A stretch of 22,161 bases of DNA from a virus. Below are positions 2-13,508 of this stretch, piece after piece (the first letter of the stretch is position 1; each line of letters opens with the position of its first letter). The stretch covers positions 1 to 22,161 of the IMG/VR virus record IMGVR_UViG_3300025508_001657; one strand, 5' to 3'. The notes under the pieces are model-generated. The model was given only the letters and a program-made list of their open reading frames with translations. It did no database searches and was not told the DNA's origin. A program made the position numbers and the translations under genes.

Positions 2-427
2 TCCTCTGTTGGTGCAGGTATTCAATCTCTTAACGCTGTACTTATAACTCTTACAGGAATTGATGAGAGGATGAATAACATTGAGTATGAGTTTGTAACT
101 CTTAAAGAATCTACTTATGTACAGAATGATATAGCTGTACTGTATGAGAAGATACAGTCATTAGAGATGTCGGCACAGAATGTCGGTAGGTTTAATGAAG
201 AAATGGCTACCCTACAAGCTAACTTGTTTAACTTAGAGCAAACAGTTAGAGATGGTGGTTTTGATTTAGACAGATATTACTTACTAGAAAAGTGGGAGTA
301 TCAAGACCTTAACGATTCTTTAACTAGGGTAGAAACACAAGTACAAACTGTTAACAATAGTATGTGGGAACTTAACGATTTGAAAACTAGATTAGCTTAC
401 TTAGAAGCAAATAATCATCAACATTAA
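2..427 (+). CDS. C-terminal part of a coiled-coil phage protein (5' end outside window)
   Basis: The reading frame is open from the first bases of the window, so the ATG at 71 is probably internal and the gene begins upstream. The visible 141 residues are rich in Leu, Asn, Gln and Glu with heptad-like spacing (for example LEMSAQNV..LQANLFNLEQTV and LTRVETQVQTVNNSMWELNDLKTRLAYLEANN), typical of a long coiled coil. I see no catalytic motif. It directly abuts the next gene (TAA then ATG). Its place just before the lysis-like genes would fit the end of a tail-fibre, baseplate or other late structural protein, but that is inference from position only. Confidence 0.6.
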   Translation, partial: SSVGAGIQSLNAVLITLTGIDERMNNIEYEFVTLKESTYVQNDIAVLYEKIQSLEMSAQNVGRFNEEMATLQANLFNLEQTVRDGGFDLDRYYLLEKWEYQDLNDSLTRVETQVQTVNNSMWELNDLKTRLAYLEANNHQH

Positions 428-550
428 ATGAGTAAGAGTAAAGAATTTTATAGGGATAACGATTACAGTCAATGTACTCCTAAACAAAATGAAAGAGGTA
501 CGTGGATAACTATTTGTAATTGTAAACATGGAAGCAGTAGCCATGAGTGA
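428..550 (+). CDS. Small Cys/His protein, 40 aa, unknown function
   Basis: ATG follows the preceding stop codon without a gap, and the frame ends at TGA 548-550, overlapping the next gene. The 40-residue product is polar with three cysteines and two histidines; the end reads ICNCKHGSSSHE, so a metal site is conceivable but the spacing is not a standard zinc ribbon. The tight coupling on both sides is the main reason to call it a gene. Function is not recognised. Confidence 0.5.
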   Translation: MSKSKEFYRDNDYSQCTPKQNERGTWITICNCKHGSSSHE

Positions 551-764: not shown

Positions 765-1961
765 ATGGACAAAGACACCAAAGGTCTTATATCTAAACGT
801 AAAGATATAGCCCATAATGAAGAACTAGGTAATAACTTCTACCCTAGTGGGTGGCAACCTCGTGCATCTTTTGATGAAAACACAAAGACTGGGGAAATAC
901 TTCATGTACAGCCCGACAACAACAACTTTAAATATGATTCTTTATTAAATGAGTGGGGTTTTGACAGTAAAGAATTTTATATTGATGAAGATACTATTAA
1001 ATTTTCTACATGGAATGCACAGCAAAAAGGTGGCGTAATTGTTGATATGTATGCATTCAAAGCAGTTATTAAAAAACGTAATCCACATCATGATAAAAGT
1101 TATGCAAAACTTCTTAAAGAAATTAAAAAAAAGAAACCAGTCAAGGTTAAAAAGGGTGGTAATTGTGCATGGTTTTTCTTTATGGCTGATTGGCAACTTG
1201 GAAAAAAAGATTTAGGTGTTGAACAAACTATTGCATTAATTAGGCGTGGAATTGCAAATGGAAAAACTCAACTAAAAGATTTGGAAAAGCAAGGTCACGT
1301 TGTGAAAGAAATATATCTTATAGGGCTTGGCGATTTGATTGAAAATTGTTTTGGCTTTTTTGACCACCAACCCTTTAATGTATCTTTATCCAAAACTGAA
1401 CAGGAACATCTTACTAGGGTTATGATACTGGAAATACTTGATGCATTTCTTGGTCAAGCTGAATCTATCGTTCTTGGTGGCGTACCGGGAAATCATGGGG
1501 AAAATCGCTCTGGTAAAGCAAGTGTTATGACTAATCGTTTAGATAATGCAGATACAGCTTCGATTCAAATAGTTGGAGAAATTATAAAAGGTAGAGAACG
1601 TTACAAGCACGTAAAGGTTGTTGTACCTGATGATTTTCATTTAGCCCTTGAAGTCTTTGGTAAAAGAATTGCATTTACACATGGTCACATGACTACTGGT
1701 GGTGGAGATATTTGGGGCAAGATTGAAAAGTGGTGGAAAGGTCAAATGTACGGATGGCTTCCAGCAGGTATGTGTGAGATTCTCGTCACAGGACATTATC
1801 ATCATTTAAGAGTTGTAGAACAACTTGGTCGTGCATGGTTTCAAGCTCCATCCCTAGACCAGTCTGATGAATTTAAAGCAAGAACAGGCAATATGTCTAG
1901 AAATGGTGTCTTATCCTTTACTGTAAACAATGATGGCTGGGATAATCTAAAAATACTCTAA
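765..1961 (+). CDS. Calcineurin-like metallophosphoesterase
   Basis: The 398-aa protein carries the ordered metal-binding motifs of the calcineurin-like phosphoesterase superfamily: ADWQ (D142, Q144), GLGDLIEN (D190), GNHGE (N243, H244), THGH (H306, H308) and TGHYHH (H344, H346). These enzymes bind two metal ions and cleave phosphodiesters or phosphomonoesters. The first motif has Gln where DxH is usual. Residues 1-130 form an extra N-terminal region ending in a Lys-rich linker. Phage members are often annotated as nucleases or phosphatases acting on DNA, but the substrate here cannot be read. The ATG has only a weak ribosome binding site, and a palindrome lies just upstream. The gene converges with the small leftward gene at 2086-2247. 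Confidence 0.85.
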   Translation: MDKDTKGLISKRKDIAHNEELGNNFYPSGWQPRASFDENTKTGEILHVQPDNNNFKYDSLLNEWGFDSKEFYIDEDTIKFSTWNAQQKGGVIVDMYAFKAVIKKRNPHHDKSYAKLLKEIKKKKPVKVKKGGNCAWFFFMADWQLGKKDLGVEQTIALIRRGIANGKTQLKDLEKQGHVVKEIYLIGLGDLIENCFGFFDHQPFNVSLSKTEQEHLTRVMILEILDAFLGQAESIVLGGVPGNHGENRSGKASVMTNRLDNADTASIQIVGEIIKGRERYKHVKVVVPDDFHLALEVFGKRIAFTHGHMTTGGGDIWGKIEKWWKGQMYGWLPAGMCEILVTGHYHHLRVVEQLGRAWFQAPSLDQSDEFKARTGNMSRNGVLSFTVNNDGWDNLKIL

Positions 1962-10408: not shown

Positions 10409-10556
10409 TACGTTCCTCTTTTAATTTATTCTTTATCTTTTTAATTAAAGCGTTTTCAAAAGATTCTGCCTGTAACTTATTAACAGCTACTGGATGATTC
10501 TTTTGTGTAGAGCCACGCTTCTTAGATTTAGCTCTCCTGCGTTGTTGCCTGTTCAT
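10395..10556 (-). CDS. Highly basic 53-aa protein (MNRxxRR type)
   Basis: The frame reads MNRQQRRRAKSKKRGSTQKN and continues to TAA at 10395. It begins by an ATGA overlap with the upstream gene and ends overlapping the zinc-ribbon gene. The first 16 residues hold nine Arg/Lys; the C-terminal half is a Lys/Glu-rich helix. Short proteins beginning MNRxxRR recur in actinobacterial phages. Nucleic-acid binding is likely from charge alone. Confidence 0.6.
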   Translation of the reverse strand: MNRQQRRRAKSKKRGSTQKNHPVAVNKLQAESFENALIKKIKNKLKEERNESN

Positions 10557-10801
10557 AACACAAACCTTAAATGACCACGTGGTCTTGGGTATGGTTTTAA
10601 CTTGCCTGTCATTCCTACTGTCTGTGTGTTGCCAGTTGGTACAACATTATTTTCTACTGTATAAATAGGTGCTGATAACTGTACGTGCCTGTCTGCACTC
10701 ACAACATGAGTTAAGACGGCTGTATTGTTTTCAACATAACCTAAATATGTTTTTCCTAGAATTAAGTTATCTGATTCACAGATAGCTGTATATTCTTTCA
10801 T
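10553..10801 (-). CDS. Hypothetical beta-rich protein, 82 aa
   Basis: The start at 10801 (MKEYTAICESDNLILGKTYLGYVENN) is preferred to 10909 because GGAG lies just upstream, and the longer version would run through the repeated hairpin element. The sequence alternates short hydrophobic strands with polar turns (TAICESDN, LILGKTYLGYVENNTAVLTHV), like a small beta-barrel. Its Pro/Arg-rich end is KPYPRPRGHLRFVL. It is the first gene after the last hairpin element, and its own junction with the next gene is a plain ATGA overlap. Function unknown. Confidence 0.6.
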   Translation of the reverse strand: MKEYTAICESDNLILGKTYLGYVENNTAVLTHVVSADRHVQLSAPIYTVENNVVPTGNTQTVGMTGKLKPYPRPRGHLRFVL

Positions 10802-10822
10802 GATTCTCCAATCGTTTGTAGT

Positions 10823-10874
10823 GATACCTAAGTATCTATCTACCCACAATTTCTTATGGGTAGTTAGATAATTA
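10823..10874 (-). repeat. Junction hairpin element, copy 1
   Basis: On the leftward transcript this begins at the stop codon of the gene above (TAA 10872-10874). Stem B is 10840-10863 (9 bp CUACCCAUA/UGUGGGUAG with one G-U, 6-base loop), extended by UAUCUA/UAGAUA across an A-A mismatch. Stem A is 10823-10836 (GATAC/GTATC, 4-base loop). The two share the GAUA segment. It lies 22 bases before the next start codon. Confidence 0.8.
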
Positions 10875-11306
10875 CGGGTATAATATAAGATGACAAATAA
10901 CATCGGCAAAGTTGCTCATATATTTACCGTCATCGTCAAACAAGTCGATATCTTTATGATAACTAGCAACGTGGTCGTTATTTACTTTTGTATTTACATT
11001 TGCTATGTGCGTATACATTGGTTTGACAAAAGTTCCGTCACTTCCGAAAATGAAAATACTTTTGCTTAATGTGTAACCACGACTTGTATCGCTGTAATAA
11101 AATGATACGCTTCTATCACTTACTGGTAATAACTTGTGGTCGTCATCACTTTGGTTGTAATCTACAATTAGTTCCCAATCTTTTGTGGAAAATGTATATT
11201 GCAAGTTTTTAGGGTATCTAAAATTTGCAGTATCAATTTGTTCTCCTTTCACATCTGTCCATTTTGCTATGTCTTTTATTATTTTTGTATATAATGATTT
11301 ATTCAT
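10872..11306 (-). CDS. Hypothetical early protein, 144 aa
   Basis: ATG at 11306 follows AAAGGAATAACAA, the ribosome binding site form shared by genes in this block. The product starts with a helix (LYTKIIKDIAKWTDV) and continues as a mixed, aromatic-rich region (WELIVDYNQSDDDHKLLPVSDRSVSFYYSD, KSIFIFGSDGTFV) with many Asp residues. No cysteine cluster or transmembrane segment and no family I recognise. It is bounded on both sides by copies of the hairpin element. Confidence 0.65.
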   Translation of the reverse strand: MNKSLYTKIIKDIAKWTDVKGEQIDTANFRYPKNLQYTFSTKDWELIVDYNQSDDDHKLLPVSDRSVSFYYSDTSRGYTLSKSIFIFGSDGTFVKPMYTHIANVNTKVNNDHVASYHKDIDLFDDDGKYMSNFADVICHLILYP

Positions 11307-11327
11307 TTGTTATTCCTTTTTTTAAGT

Positions 11328-11379
11328 GGTACTTATGTACCAATCTGCCCTCACTATATGTAAGAGCAGTTTGCTACTA
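11328..11379 (-). repeat. Junction hairpin element, copy 2 (diverged)
   Basis: Begins at the TAG stop of the ArdC-like gene. Stem B 11345-11369 is 10 bp on the leftward RNA (CUGCUCUUAC/GUGAGGGCAG, two G-U pairs, 5-base loop). Stem A 11328-11341 is GGTAC/GTACC, a compensatory A-U to G-C change relative to the GATAC/GTATC of copy 1. The outer UAUCUA/UAGAUA helix is lost in this copy. Confidence 0.75.
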
Positions 11380-11673
11380 AGCAACGTTGCTTTGTATTAT
11401 TGATTCGTATGCACGTTGTCTTTTGCATATATCCTCATAATCAAAAACGCTGAAGAATTTTACATCAAGTATTTTTTTGCCGAGTACATCCTCAACTTCT
11501 TTACAGAACTTTAAGGTTGCAACTTTCTTAATACCTTTCATAGCTTTAGGGTTGATACCTAATTTCATGGCTTGGTTGAAAGTGCAAAACCTATGACCAT
11601 CTGCAAATCCTAGACCTGCAAGTAATTCATAGTTTGTACCTGTGTATGTATTTCCTGTTAATGCGTTAATCAT
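11377..11673 (-). CDS. Stand-alone ArdC N-terminal-like (ssDNA-binding, antirestriction) domain protein
   Basis: Start 11673 is chosen (AGGA just upstream); the ATG at 11724 would include hairpin element DNA. The 98-aa protein opens MINALTGNTYTGTNYELLAG and continues with FADGHRFCTFNQAMKLGI and KAMKGIKKVATLKF. This matches the ordered motifs of the ArdC N-terminal domain (N-x-x-TG-x-x-Y-x-G-x-N, W/F-x-T-F-x-Q-A-x-x-L-G, KG-x-K). ArdC binds ssDNA and protects incoming plasmid DNA from restriction; the full protein also carries a metalloprotease, which is absent here. In an early phage operon an antirestriction or ssDNA-protection role is likely. Identification is by motif, not by search. Confidence 0.65.
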   Translation of the reverse strand: MINALTGNTYTGTNYELLAGLGFADGHRFCTFNQAMKLGINPKAMKGIKKVATLKFCKEVEDVLGKKILDVKFFSVFDYEDICKRQRAYESIIQSNVA

Positions 11674-11696
11674 TTTTCCTACTTTCGTTTTTAAGT

Positions 11697-11755
11697 GATA
11701 CTTCGTATAAGTATCTATCTGCACACCCTAAGATATGCAGTTAGATAATTACTTA
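11697..11755 (-). repeat. Junction hairpin element, copy 3
   Basis: Begins at the TAA stop at 11753-11755. Stem B 11719-11740 is 9 bp (CUGCAUAUC/GGUGUGCAG with two G-U pairs, UUAG loop) inside the conserved UAUCUA/UAGAUA helix. Stem A 11697-11715 is a perfect 7-bp GATACTT/AAGTATC with a 5-base loop. CACTTAAA follows stem A, as in copies 2 and 5. Confidence 0.85.
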
Positions 11756-11947
11756 CAATGATTTCATGCCAGTCAATATGTCGATACAATATTTCATGCC
11801 ATCAGTAAAACCATTGTCGTATGCTTTTTGATTTTTTAAAGAGCCACCAAGTAATTCTTTTTTAGTAGCGACTTCATAAAAGTCGTTGCATTCGATTATT
11901 TGCCTTTGTAACTCTTTCTTGAGAGCTTCTGCTATTTCTTTATTCAC
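11753..11947 (-). CDS. Hypothetical helical protein, 64 aa
   Basis: The start is GTG at 11947 with AAAGGAG 6 bases upstream. The product (MNKEIAEALKKELQRQIIEC...) is a charged helix followed by a Gly-containing turn and a second helix (YDNGFTDGMKYCIDILTGM), with two cysteines too far apart for a knuckle. It is preceded by a 144-nt closed RNA domain, the largest leader in the operon, so it may be the most tightly controlled gene here. Function unknown. Confidence 0.6.
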   Translation of the reverse strand: MNKEIAEALKKELQRQIIECNDFYEVATKKELLGGSLKNQKAYDNGFTDGMKYCIDILTGMKSL

Positions 11948-11968
11948 GTTTATCTCCTTTATTTTTAG

Positions 11969-12112
11969 TTATGATTTGTGAGCCCTTGCTAATTTTACTT
12001 ACCTAATGGTCGTTTATCTTAACAAAAGTGTCTAGCACCAACTTGTTAAGGTTTTTTCGCAGTTGTTTGAACATCGCAATGAGTGGTATTTATTGATACC
12101 CACAAATCATAA
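11969..12112 (-). ncRNA. 144-nt RNA domain closed by a perfect 12-bp stem
   Basis: TTATGATTTGTG at one end and CACAAATCATAA at the other are exact reverse complements, 120 bases apart. On the leftward RNA the interior holds a hairpin GGUAU/AUACC and a longer CUUAACAA/UUGUUAAG 8-bp stem capped by GUG-CUAGA-CAC, which gives a multibranch look. The domain ends about 11 bases before AAAGGAG of the gene starting at 11947 and contains no convincing ORF. It could be a riboswitch-like leader, a small phage RNA or a mobile structured insertion. I recognise no known class and no tRNA. Confidence 0.5.
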
Positions 12113-12118
12113 TTCGTT

Positions 12119-12174
12119 GATACTTCTTGTAAGTATCTATCTACCCACCGAGTTGATGGGTAGTTAGATAATCA
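12119..12174 (-). repeat. Junction hairpin element, copy 4
   Basis: Begins at the TGA stop at 12172-12174. Stem B 12141-12163 is 9 bp (CUACCCAUC/GGUGGGUAG, one G-U, 5-base loop) with the conserved outer UAUCUA/UAGAUA. Stem A 12119-12137 is a perfect 7-bp GATACTT/AAGTATC. Here the 144-nt domain follows instead of the ribosome binding site. Confidence 0.85.
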
Positions 12175-12495
12175 CTCTCCAGCGTTAGCAAGTTCTTCAA
12201 CATCAGGCATAGTCAATTTAAGCATTGATATTTCGTTCCTGAGATTTCTTAGAACACATGATTCTTCACAGAAGTATGTAGCACCTTTGAATAAACTCTC
12301 GTATACGAATTCGTTTTCGTTTAGATATTCTTCACAATATTCACATTTTTCTGCCCATCCGTCATTAGTATCTTCATCAAGAAATGGATTGTCTAGTTTT
12401 TCAACTGTGTCCATGTGTTCTAGGTTTTCTACTATTACTTCTAGTTCCTCTAGTCTTGCTTTTTTGTCGGCTAGTATTTTTTTCCAGTCAGTCAT
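12172..12495 (-). CDS. Acidic zinc-finger-like protein, 107 aa
   Basis: The product has an N-terminal coiled-coil helix (KKARLEELEVIVENLEH), then CEYCEEYLNENEFVYESLFKGATYFCEESC, where two Cys pairs (CxxC and CxxxC) about 20 residues apart could bind zinc, and a C-terminal helix. It is strongly acidic, so protein binding, for example to a host factor, is more likely than DNA binding. ATG follows an A-rich AAAGGAAAAAA leader. Flanked by hairpin element copies 4 and 5. No family recognised. Confidence 0.65.
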   Translation of the reverse strand: MTDWKKILADKKARLEELEVIVENLEHMDTVEKLDNPFLDEDTNDGWAEKCEYCEEYLNENEFVYESLFKGATYFCEESCVLRNLRNEISMLKLTMPDVEELANAGE

Positions 12496-12515
12496 TTTTT
12501 TTCCTTTGTTTAAGT

Positions 12516-12571
12516 GATACTTCTTATAAGCATCTATCTGCCCTCACTTAATGAGAGCAGTTAGATAATTA
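12516..12571 (-). repeat. Junction hairpin element, copy 5
   Basis: Begins at the TAA stop at 12569-12571. Stem B 12538-12560 is 9 bp on the leftward RNA (CUGCUCUCA/UGAGGGCAG, one G-U, 5-base loop). Stem A 12516-12534 is 7 bp with one G-U (GAUGCUU/AAGUAUC). On the opposite strand both G-U positions would be A-C mismatches, which indicates that the leftward transcript is the functional form. Confidence 0.85.
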
Positions 12572-12925
12572 CAATGTGATTGTAAAGTGTACGCTAAAGT
12601 CGTTGGGAGTTCTTGTGATTGCGATTTTGCCCATATGGGTTACATCGTCTGTACCACCCTCATTATCCCAGAATCTTGCTCGTGTAATTCTGTACTCGTT
12701 AGTTTCGCCGACTGGTAGTTGTACTCTCTCGTGACAAAGCATTTGTGCATTGTCGACTAGGAATCTTGCGATAGCTTCCAAACTGATTTCTCCGTCTGTG
12801 TAGTATTCGCTAATTTCTTGGTCTTTTGTTTGAAACCAGTTACCGAAGCATCCAAACATCTTGTCAGAGTCTGTATTCTCGAATTGTATAGTTTCATGTG
12901 TTAGTGTTTTTCCGTAAGTTGTCAT
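12569..12925 (-). CDS. First gene of leftward operon, hypothetical protein, 118 aa
   Basis: Start 12925 (MTTYGKTLTHETIQFEN) is chosen because AAAGGAAAAC lies just upstream; the ATG at 12994 would place the leader hairpin in the coding sequence. The protein has a helical middle (ISLEAIARFLVDNAQMLCHERVQL) and C-terminal strands (YRITRARFWDNEG, GKIAITRTPNDFSVHFTITL), a compact alpha/beta layout. No recognised family. As the first gene after the divergent region it is probably expressed earliest, so a host-takeover or regulatory role is conceivable. Confidence 0.65.
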   Translation of the reverse strand: MTTYGKTLTHETIQFENTDSDKMFGCFGNWFQTKDQEISEYYTDGEISLEAIARFLVDNAQMLCHERVQLPVGETNEYRITRARFWDNEGGTDDVTHMGKIAITRTPNDFSVHFTITL

Positions 12926-12950
12926 TTTGTTTTCCTTTTTTTTAGTGGAA

Positions 12951-13001
12951 CTGATTGCTCCATAAGGCACCATCCGTAAATGATGCCCTAGCAAAAATCA
13001 G
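12951..13001 (-). promoter_or_regulatory. Leader hairpin of leftward operon (possible divergent sixth element)
   Basis: On the leftward RNA, 12966-12987 forms a 9-bp stem (GGCAUCAUU/GAUGGUGCC, two G-U) with loop UACG. It is enclosed by CUGAUU/AAUCAG (12951-12956 with 12996-13001) and GCU/AGC. The sequence differs from copies 1-5, but the arrangement before ACTAAAAAAAAGGAAAAC is the same. It would form the extreme 5' end of the transcript if the TATAAT just upstream is used. Confidence 0.55.
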
Positions 13002-13002
13002 A

Positions 13003-13008
13003 ATTATA
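13003..13008 (-). promoter_or_regulatory. Candidate -10 box for leftward operon
   Basis: The leftward strand reads TATAAT here, an exact -10 consensus about 80 bases before the first gene and directly upstream of the leader hairpin. No good -35 hexamer lies 16-18 bases further upstream (GAACGA at 17), so it would need an activator, a phage factor or another sigma. In AT-rich DNA such hexamers are frequent. Confidence 0.3.
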
Positions 13009-13053
13009 ATTGTTTAGTTTTTTTCTCGTTCTAAATGCTTTGGGGTCAATCGT

Positions 13054-13285
13054 ATTTAGCTGTTGTGTGTAAAGAGCACACAGCCACATGGGCTACCTTG
13101 ACTATCTCATAAATTTCTTATACTAACATTCGTGGACTATGTCAGCACCGTACCCACACAATTTCGTAAACACCTCCAATAACGGTCAATGGTCGCGTGA
13201 GCTGGTTTGTCGGCTTTCGCAGGGAAGCGTACTGGGTTTTTGACTGCTTGCAGGGACGACTGCAACCAACAGTTTACAGCTAAAT
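13054..13285. other. GC-richer structured island in divergent region, closed by 10-bp inverted repeat
   Basis: ATTTAGCTGT (13054-13063) and ACAGCTAAAT (13276-13285) are perfect inverted copies enclosing 212 bases that are visibly richer in G and C than their surroundings. Inside are hairpins at 13059-13084 (GCTG..TGTG with CACA..CAGC) and 13248-13265 (TTGCAG/CTGCAA, 6-base loop). It contains no gene with a ribosome binding site. Lying between the divergent early and late operons and just upstream of terminase, it could be a structured RNA, a replication origin, or the packaging (cos/pac) site. Confidence 0.45.
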
Positions 13286-13508
13286 CCAGAGCCCCCCAAA
13301 TGTGTGTGTGTTTTTCATAGTAATACTAGTTTAATCGGTAATTCTTAATTATGTATTAATAATTAAATAATGTATGTTCTGTACTTACAAAAAACCCTTA
13401 TTACAATAGAGTGGATAAGACGCTAAAAAAACTTTAAAAAAAAGTGAAAAAATTTGCTGAATTTTGAGTGAAAATGTACCTTGAACTTTAGTTTTAGGAG
13501 TTGAGAAA
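13286..13508. promoter_or_regulatory. AT-rich leader of late operon with 8-bp palindrome
   Basis: This stretch holds a GCCCCCC run (13291-13297) and a TG repeat (about 13301-13310). A perfect hairpin TTAATTAT/ATAATTAA at 13345-13366 has a 6-base loop. Long A-runs lie near 13425-13451, and AGGAG sits 8 bases before the terminase small subunit ATG. A late promoter is expected here but I see no convincing -35/-10 pair. I found no protein-coding ORF in it. Confidence 0.35.

Follow-up and report, generated by a model that had tools for sequence, protein, structure and literature searches.

Results

Genomic context and element copies

The window, meaning the whole stretch of DNA analysed, is a virus record of 22,161 bases, and a DNA search of its full length against phage records gave 0 matches. 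Genes for terminase, portal and major capsid protein run rightward, and a leftward operon extends from ~12,925 to 6,794, with small genes first and replication genes last. The operon starts, on the minus strand throughout, with a gene for a 118-aa protein that has no Pfam or PHROG match (12569..12925), followed by genes for a four-cysteine protein of 107 aa (12172..12495; zinc-finger match at sub-threshold level only), a 64-aa protein (11753..11947; no match), a 98-aa protein matching the N-terminal domain of the anti-restriction protein ArdC (11377..11673; PF08401), a 144-aa protein (10872..11306; no match) and an 82-aa protein (10553..10801). Their arrangement suggests that these genes are early and co-transcribed.

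Each of the joints between these genes carries a copy of an RNA element of ~50–60 nt, which reads 5' to 3' as N-UAA-U-UAUCUA-A-P2-loop-P2'-A-UAGAUA-C-UUA-N, followed by the 3' strand of stem A. Two folds are open to it. In state 1 it forms one long interrupted hairpin of ~20 pairs, in which P1' (4 bp) is separated from P1 (6 bp) by a mismatch, and P1 from P2 (8–13 bp) by an A.A mismatch; P1', P1 and P2 together span ~20–25 positions that include conserved mismatches. P1' pairs NUAA, within which the upstream stop codon lies, with UUAN, and its N pair covaries (G-U, A-U, G-C, C-G). In state 2, P1' and P1 are open and the P1 3' strand pairs downstream to form stem A (5–7 bp), which adjoins P2 and lies just before the A-rich ribosome binding site. 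Here GAUAC, consisting of part of the P1 3' strand and the next C, pairs with a downstream GUAUC; that C is unpaired, as a mismatch, in P1 and paired in stem A. P1 and stem A are mutually exclusive, since they share a strand, which is 3' in P1 and 5' in stem A. The sequence-only reading of this locus had described two hairpins, and both of its stems, A and B (our P2), are real, but they are not independent: the outer helix, whose 3' strand stem A reuses, had been overlooked. By predicted energy, P1 is favoured over stem A by 1.9 kcal/mol in the median, and the two states are within 5 kcal/mol of each other in 84 of 90 copies; the difference is 0.3–4.3 kcal/mol for the window copies, with the sixth copy within 1 kcal/mol, and mostly within 1 kcal/mol for class 3 (classes are defined below).

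Five minus-strand copies had been proposed, and all five are present, at 50–70 bits against a covariance model. Copy 1 (10822..10877, minus strand; class 1; 70.3 bits) has P1 UAUCUA/UAGAUA, the A.A mismatch, P2 CUACCCAUAA/UUGUGGGUAG, a GAAA loop and stem A GAUAC/GUAUC; the outermost N pair of its P1' is G.G, and the P1' 5' strand holds the UAA of the 144-aa gene, with the 82-aa gene downstream. Copy 2 (11327..11383, minus strand; class 2, the GG variant; 49.9 bits) starts with UAG and combines P1 GUAGCAA/UUGGUAC, containing a G.G mismatch, with a 10-bp P2 and stem A GGUAC/GUACC. Copies 3 (11696..11754, minus strand; 70.5 bits) and 4 (12118..12177, minus strand; 68.6 bits), both of class 1, have stem A GAUACUU/AAGUAUC, and copy 4 has a UGA stop within P1' (GUGA/UUAC). 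In copy 5 (12515..12574, minus strand; class 1; 62.9 bits), stem A is GAUGCUU/AAGUAUC, with one G-U. Stem B is 9–10 bp in every one of these five copies, as had been read, the compensatory change in stem A from GATAC/GTATC to GGTAC/GTACC is present, and the G-U pairs of the leftward RNA do correspond to A-C on the opposite strand. Five was nevertheless an undercount, in that a sixth, divergent copy of class 3 (12946..13003, minus strand) lies in the leader ahead of the first gene, with outer helix CUGAUU/AAUCAG, P2 AGGGCAUCAU/AUGGUGCCUU and stem A GGAGC/GUUCC. Alone it reaches only 13.9 bits (E 0.27); it has homologues in more IMG/VR contigs, among which P2 covaries.

Relatives and classes

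A pattern scan of IMG/VR in which only the flanks TTATCTAACT and AGATAGATRCTTA were fixed returned 41 stretches. The covariance model that had been called for was built from 41 sequences and run on IMG/VR together with further patterns; scans and model yielded ~100 distinct elements in some 60 contigs, with 1 to ~7 elements per contig, usually in one cluster and oriented with the genes. Scores on the sense strand were mostly 47–76 bits, versus up to 34 bits on the opposite strand. All of the contigs are metagenomic fragments, and as the relatives were gathered by window-like patterns, their diversity is underestimated. From the metagenome identifiers and relatives, our reading is that the carriers are marine and estuarine phages.

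Three classes can be told apart. Class 1 has the GAUAC word and keeps the sequence of P1 as well as its pairing; class 2 combines GG words (e.g. GGAAC, GGUAC) with a G.G mismatch conserved in P1; class 3, to which the sixth window copy belongs, has the outer CUGAUU/AAUCAG and is located before first genes. The P1 and P2 sequences differ between classes and the shape is constant. Long inserts in the P2 loop, of 24–75 nt or so, leave P2 and stem A intact in five contigs (L017:1350-1483, L004:379-465, L021:34-123, L033:3053-3135 and L003:6405-6489). When the pattern was relaxed to catch a rare variant, CTAGTATA...AATACTACTTA, it produced 11 chance contigs without the stem (L069–L079), which were rejected, and a single genuine contig (L006/L080).

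Searches beyond these contigs were negative. A strict 25-base element pattern found nothing in GTDB genomes, an element query gave no credible match among phage records, and the cultured pelagiphages HTVC010P, HTVC200P, HTVC204P and Kolga, to which a small gene in common had led and which served as outsiders, have no element. Rfam 15 contained no family at gathering score and a literature search brought up no described element of such form, in keeping with the initial impression that the element has no name.

A 398-aa protein encoded in the window (765-1961, plus strand) occurs in 16 contigs that carry the element and fall into two replication types, one with a Rad52-like protein. It has no Pfam match, and its invariant histidines and aspartates resemble those of metal-dependent hydrolases. 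A host search with this protein gave one relative, on a contig of a Flavobacteriaceae metagenome-assembled genome that is without the element; we did not accept this as a host assignment because the binning may be wrong and because the element phages use strong Shine-Dalgarno sites.

Selection on RNA structure

Since nothing inside the flanks was selected, the flank scan offers an unbiased test of both structure and strand. A stem of 6 bp or more forms in all 26 distinct inserts between the fixed flanks, versus 267 of 52,000 shuffles (0.5%), and the pairs of the inserts comprise 145 Watson-Crick, 36 G-U, 0 A-C and 1 other. Across 41 distinct sequences, pairing is kept in 95.6% of pair cells, falling to 26–44% when the partner is slid by 1–3 columns, and both sides vary in 16 of the 20 pairs. 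A lack of covariation in a larger alignment, named beforehand as an outcome that would speak against RNA structure, did not occur. The 69 distinct P2 helices contain 526 Watson-Crick, 89 G-U and 0 A-C pairs, a count to be read with the bias of model hits towards G-U over A-C in mind; only the flank scan and the class 3 pattern counts are free of that bias, and in the latter nine distinct P2 inserts form stems of 9–11 bp with 37 Watson-Crick, 8 G-U and 0 A-C pairs.

Both of the competing pairings were assessed through the middle strand that they share. For 17 distinct middle words, stem A scores 13.8 with its own downstream partner versus 8.8 with the partners of other elements, and P1 scores 10.4 with its own upstream partner versus 7.9; in a permutation test on these words, 0 of 20,000 permutations reached the observed value, for stem A and for P1 alike. 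Examples of the pairings kept are GAUAC/GUAUC, GGAAC/GUUCC, GCUAC/GUAGC, UACUAC/GUAGUA, GGUGC/GCACC and GGAAG/CUUCC. A tree-based covariation test, conservative because its tree is that of the elements themselves, placed just 3 pairs at E <= 0.05; these and all of the six top-ranked pairs lie in P2. Support for P1 and stem A therefore comes from the permutation test and the pair counts. Covariation, the strand asymmetry of G-U over A-C (36 versus 0) and orientation with the genes together strongly support the selection on RNA structure that had been suspected. Judged by comparison of sequences, selection on a bistable RNA is well supported, and these data show an element that is RNA-level, bistable and gene-linked.

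Placement at gene cassettes

Of 95 copies, 84 have an upstream ORF; the stop codon of this ORF occupies a single fixed position within P1' in 58 copies, and most of the remaining ORFs end within a few nt of it. The median distance from P1 to the next start codon is 32 nt, and the leaders are A-rich with AAGGAG-like sites. Several consecutive genes each have an element ahead, the leader of the first gene included. The earlier description of the copies as lying at consecutive gene junctions fits the five but is too narrow, as leader copies precede first genes without an upstream gene; those of class 2 have no upstream ORF and are preceded by a noncoding stretch.

The position of the stop codon invites an explanation in terms of translation, wherein a ribosome ending at the P1' stop would cover the 5' strands of P1' and P1 and force stem A, an untranslated upstream gene would leave the RNA in state 1, and the state would set cleavage, reinitiation or transcription of the next gene. 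The footprint of a terminating ribosome is ~12 nt, which would cover P1' and P1 and leave most of P2. This match makes ribosome gating the strongest rival to the processing function proposed below, and the near-equal predicted energies of the two states also suit it. Still, the leader copies keep both pairings without an upstream gene, which disfavours gating as the sole role, and stem A hides the ribosome binding site in neither state; we regard such a switch as unlikely. In a more general form, quite unlikely in our view, the element would be a translation-sensing universal linker of genes: the finishing ribosome would flip each junction from the long hairpin to stem A, the flip would decide cutting or expression of the next gene, and cassettes could be shuffled freely because each would bring its own switch.

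The elements are located at the joints of shuffled gene cassettes, with one downstream gene family found behind up to seven upstream families, one upstream family found ahead of six downstream families, and element variants crossing gene boundaries. Such shuffling might be expected of a joint that works as DNA, where phages would recombine at the repeats, and folding would be a by-product or would occur in single-stranded DNA, as for integron attC. Homologous recombination, however, needs neither a G-U/A-C asymmetry, nor gene-matched orientation, nor two alternative stems, and the core of a simple attC site (RYYYAAC...GTTRRRY) was not found: the 3' side of class 1 reads GATAGAT rather than GTTRRRY, and the other classes are without the core. 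A DNA-level joint is thus very unlikely.

Lying between a stop codon and the next start codon, with a TATAAT just before the sixth copy, the elements could also be taken for repeated promoters or terminators. Promoter-like sites in the region number 14, versus 11.9 in shuffles, and terminator-like sites 2, versus 1.5. UUUU occurs in the 12 nt after stem A in 0 of 92 copies, so the element is not an intrinsic terminator, a GC-rich hairpin with a U-tract, and we consider the whole reading extremely improbable.

Neighbouring structured RNA and leaders

Copies had been described as ending before the next ribosome binding site; this needs correcting for copy 4, directly 3' of which comes a structured insert of ~150 nt (11958-12112, minus strand) with a long terminal helix, UUAUGAUUUGUG.../...CACAAAUCAUAA. 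This insert folds better than shuffles (z -3.75), is present in contig L031 and absent from contig L039, and had no match in Rfam; it may be a structured RNA in its own right, or else mobile. In contig L022 (~375-540, plus strand), an insert of 165 nt that shares this design but not the sequence (z -4.51) lies directly 3' of a class 3 element, and structured inserts therefore seem to use the same spot.

The noncoding stretch before the early operon (13010-13330, minus strand) has relatives at 69–76% identity in three contigs (L035, L016 and L009) and a predicted long-range closing helix GGGG...CCCC, UUUAGCUGU/ACAGCUAAA; its overall fold energy is not unusual (z 0.03). Noncoding leaders extend at least ~150 nt upstream of class 2 leader elements in contigs L021, L034, L067, L063, L061, L056, L023, L042 and L051; they are partly homologous to one another, and those of them that were compared with Rfam had no match. 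Ahead of one gene family, in six contigs (L007, L016, L022, L057, L002 and L063), the element is followed by a conserved sequence resembling AATGACAAATCAAN...AAAGGAGTT, which may be another leader motif.

Discussion

Bacterial mRNA is stabilised by a hairpin at its 5' end. We tentatively propose, at a little under an even chance, that RNase III-type processing takes place at the element and that stem A then refolds to cap the 5' end of the downstream mRNA. A double-strand endoribonuclease, RNase III of the host or a similar enzyme, would act on state 1 and cut the polycistronic early RNA close to the A.A mismatch, at a distance of one helical turn from the base. In the downstream product, stem A would then refold a few nt from the new 5' end, protecting this product and leaving the ribosome binding site open. 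With cutting and refolding at each element, every gene would have its own cut-and-cap signal, functional despite shuffled gene order. The distance from the base to the A.A mismatch is 11 positions in nearly all copies, while loops range from 2 to 75 nt, as expected if the enzyme takes its measure from the helix, whatever the loop. Dependence on RNase III is suggested by size, shape and place, by analogy with T7, whose early RNA has five RNase III sites (PMC4858673), one of which, R1.1, is cut once to give 47 + 13 nt (PMC4858673). Against processing, a simple hairpin site needs no conserved alternative stem A, and an active switch could be the main function.

The conservation of P1 sequence in class 1 could reflect recognition by a protein. 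Together with the near-invariant A.A mismatch, kept in 88 of 92 copies, and the occurrence of the same element at many genes, it would fit an RNA operator, in which a phage or host protein bound to the P1-A.A-P2 hairpin represses, activates or antiterminates all early genes together. We find this doubtful, given that P1 and P2 sequences vary between classes while the shape is constant, that the loops are so variable, and that no RNA-binding candidate stood out among the shared genes, most of which have no further annotation.

In conclusion, the element represents an undescribed RNA family spread over many uncultured phages, and provides rare evidence of two mutually exclusive folds that are both under selection. 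Its probable role is to mark, for each gene in turn, the point at which the long viral message is cut or protected. Should processing and capping indeed be what it signals, the element would show how phages can still express their early genes separately after shuffling. Covariance models of the element also offer a way to locate accessory phage genes, often directed at the host, in metagenomic data.

Among known systems, the T7 RNase III site is the nearest analogue in working, and the ESAS/SAS elements of cluster K mycobacteriophages are the nearest in place. T7 sites such as R1.1 are likewise ~60-nt hairpins, several along one early polycistronic RNA, and an irregular hairpin of about two helical turns at the junctions of a presumably early, co-transcribed message is what we find here. 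In contrast to T7 sites, the copies described here, known from sequence, are homologous and strongly covarying over many phages, have an alternative stem A that excludes the outer helix, and hold a stop codon within the base. ESAS/SAS are inverted-repeat elements upstream of the start codons of many small non-structural genes; the ESAS half-sites have conserved sequence with SigA-like promoter hexamers (PMC3203893, PMC11373665), and SAS is a 13-bp GGGATAGGAGCCC near the start codon (PMC3203893). Our element resembles them in being a repeat with inverted repeats upstream of phage start codons. Unlike in ESAS, its stem sequence varies with pairing kept, and the counts of promoter-like sites given above show no excess that would suggest a SigA-type promoter within the repeat; in place of the SAS 13-mer, the leaders are A-rich with AAGGAG-like sites.

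Two further systems are similar in outline. The integron attC site is a hairpin between a gene and the next cassette, with conserved ends, a variable paired middle and shuffled cassettes, all features that the element shares; it differs in lacking the attC core (GTTRRRY/RYYYAAC), in a polarity and G-U bias that fit RNA, and in its alternative stem A. The put sites of phage HK022 are, like the element, two-stem RNAs of phage early transcripts; they act in processive antitermination, by which RNA polymerase is made to bypass terminators. The element differs in occurring at many genes and in having mutually exclusive stems. We place the element within a known kind, the junction hairpins of phage mRNA, where it is distinguished by having two selected folds.
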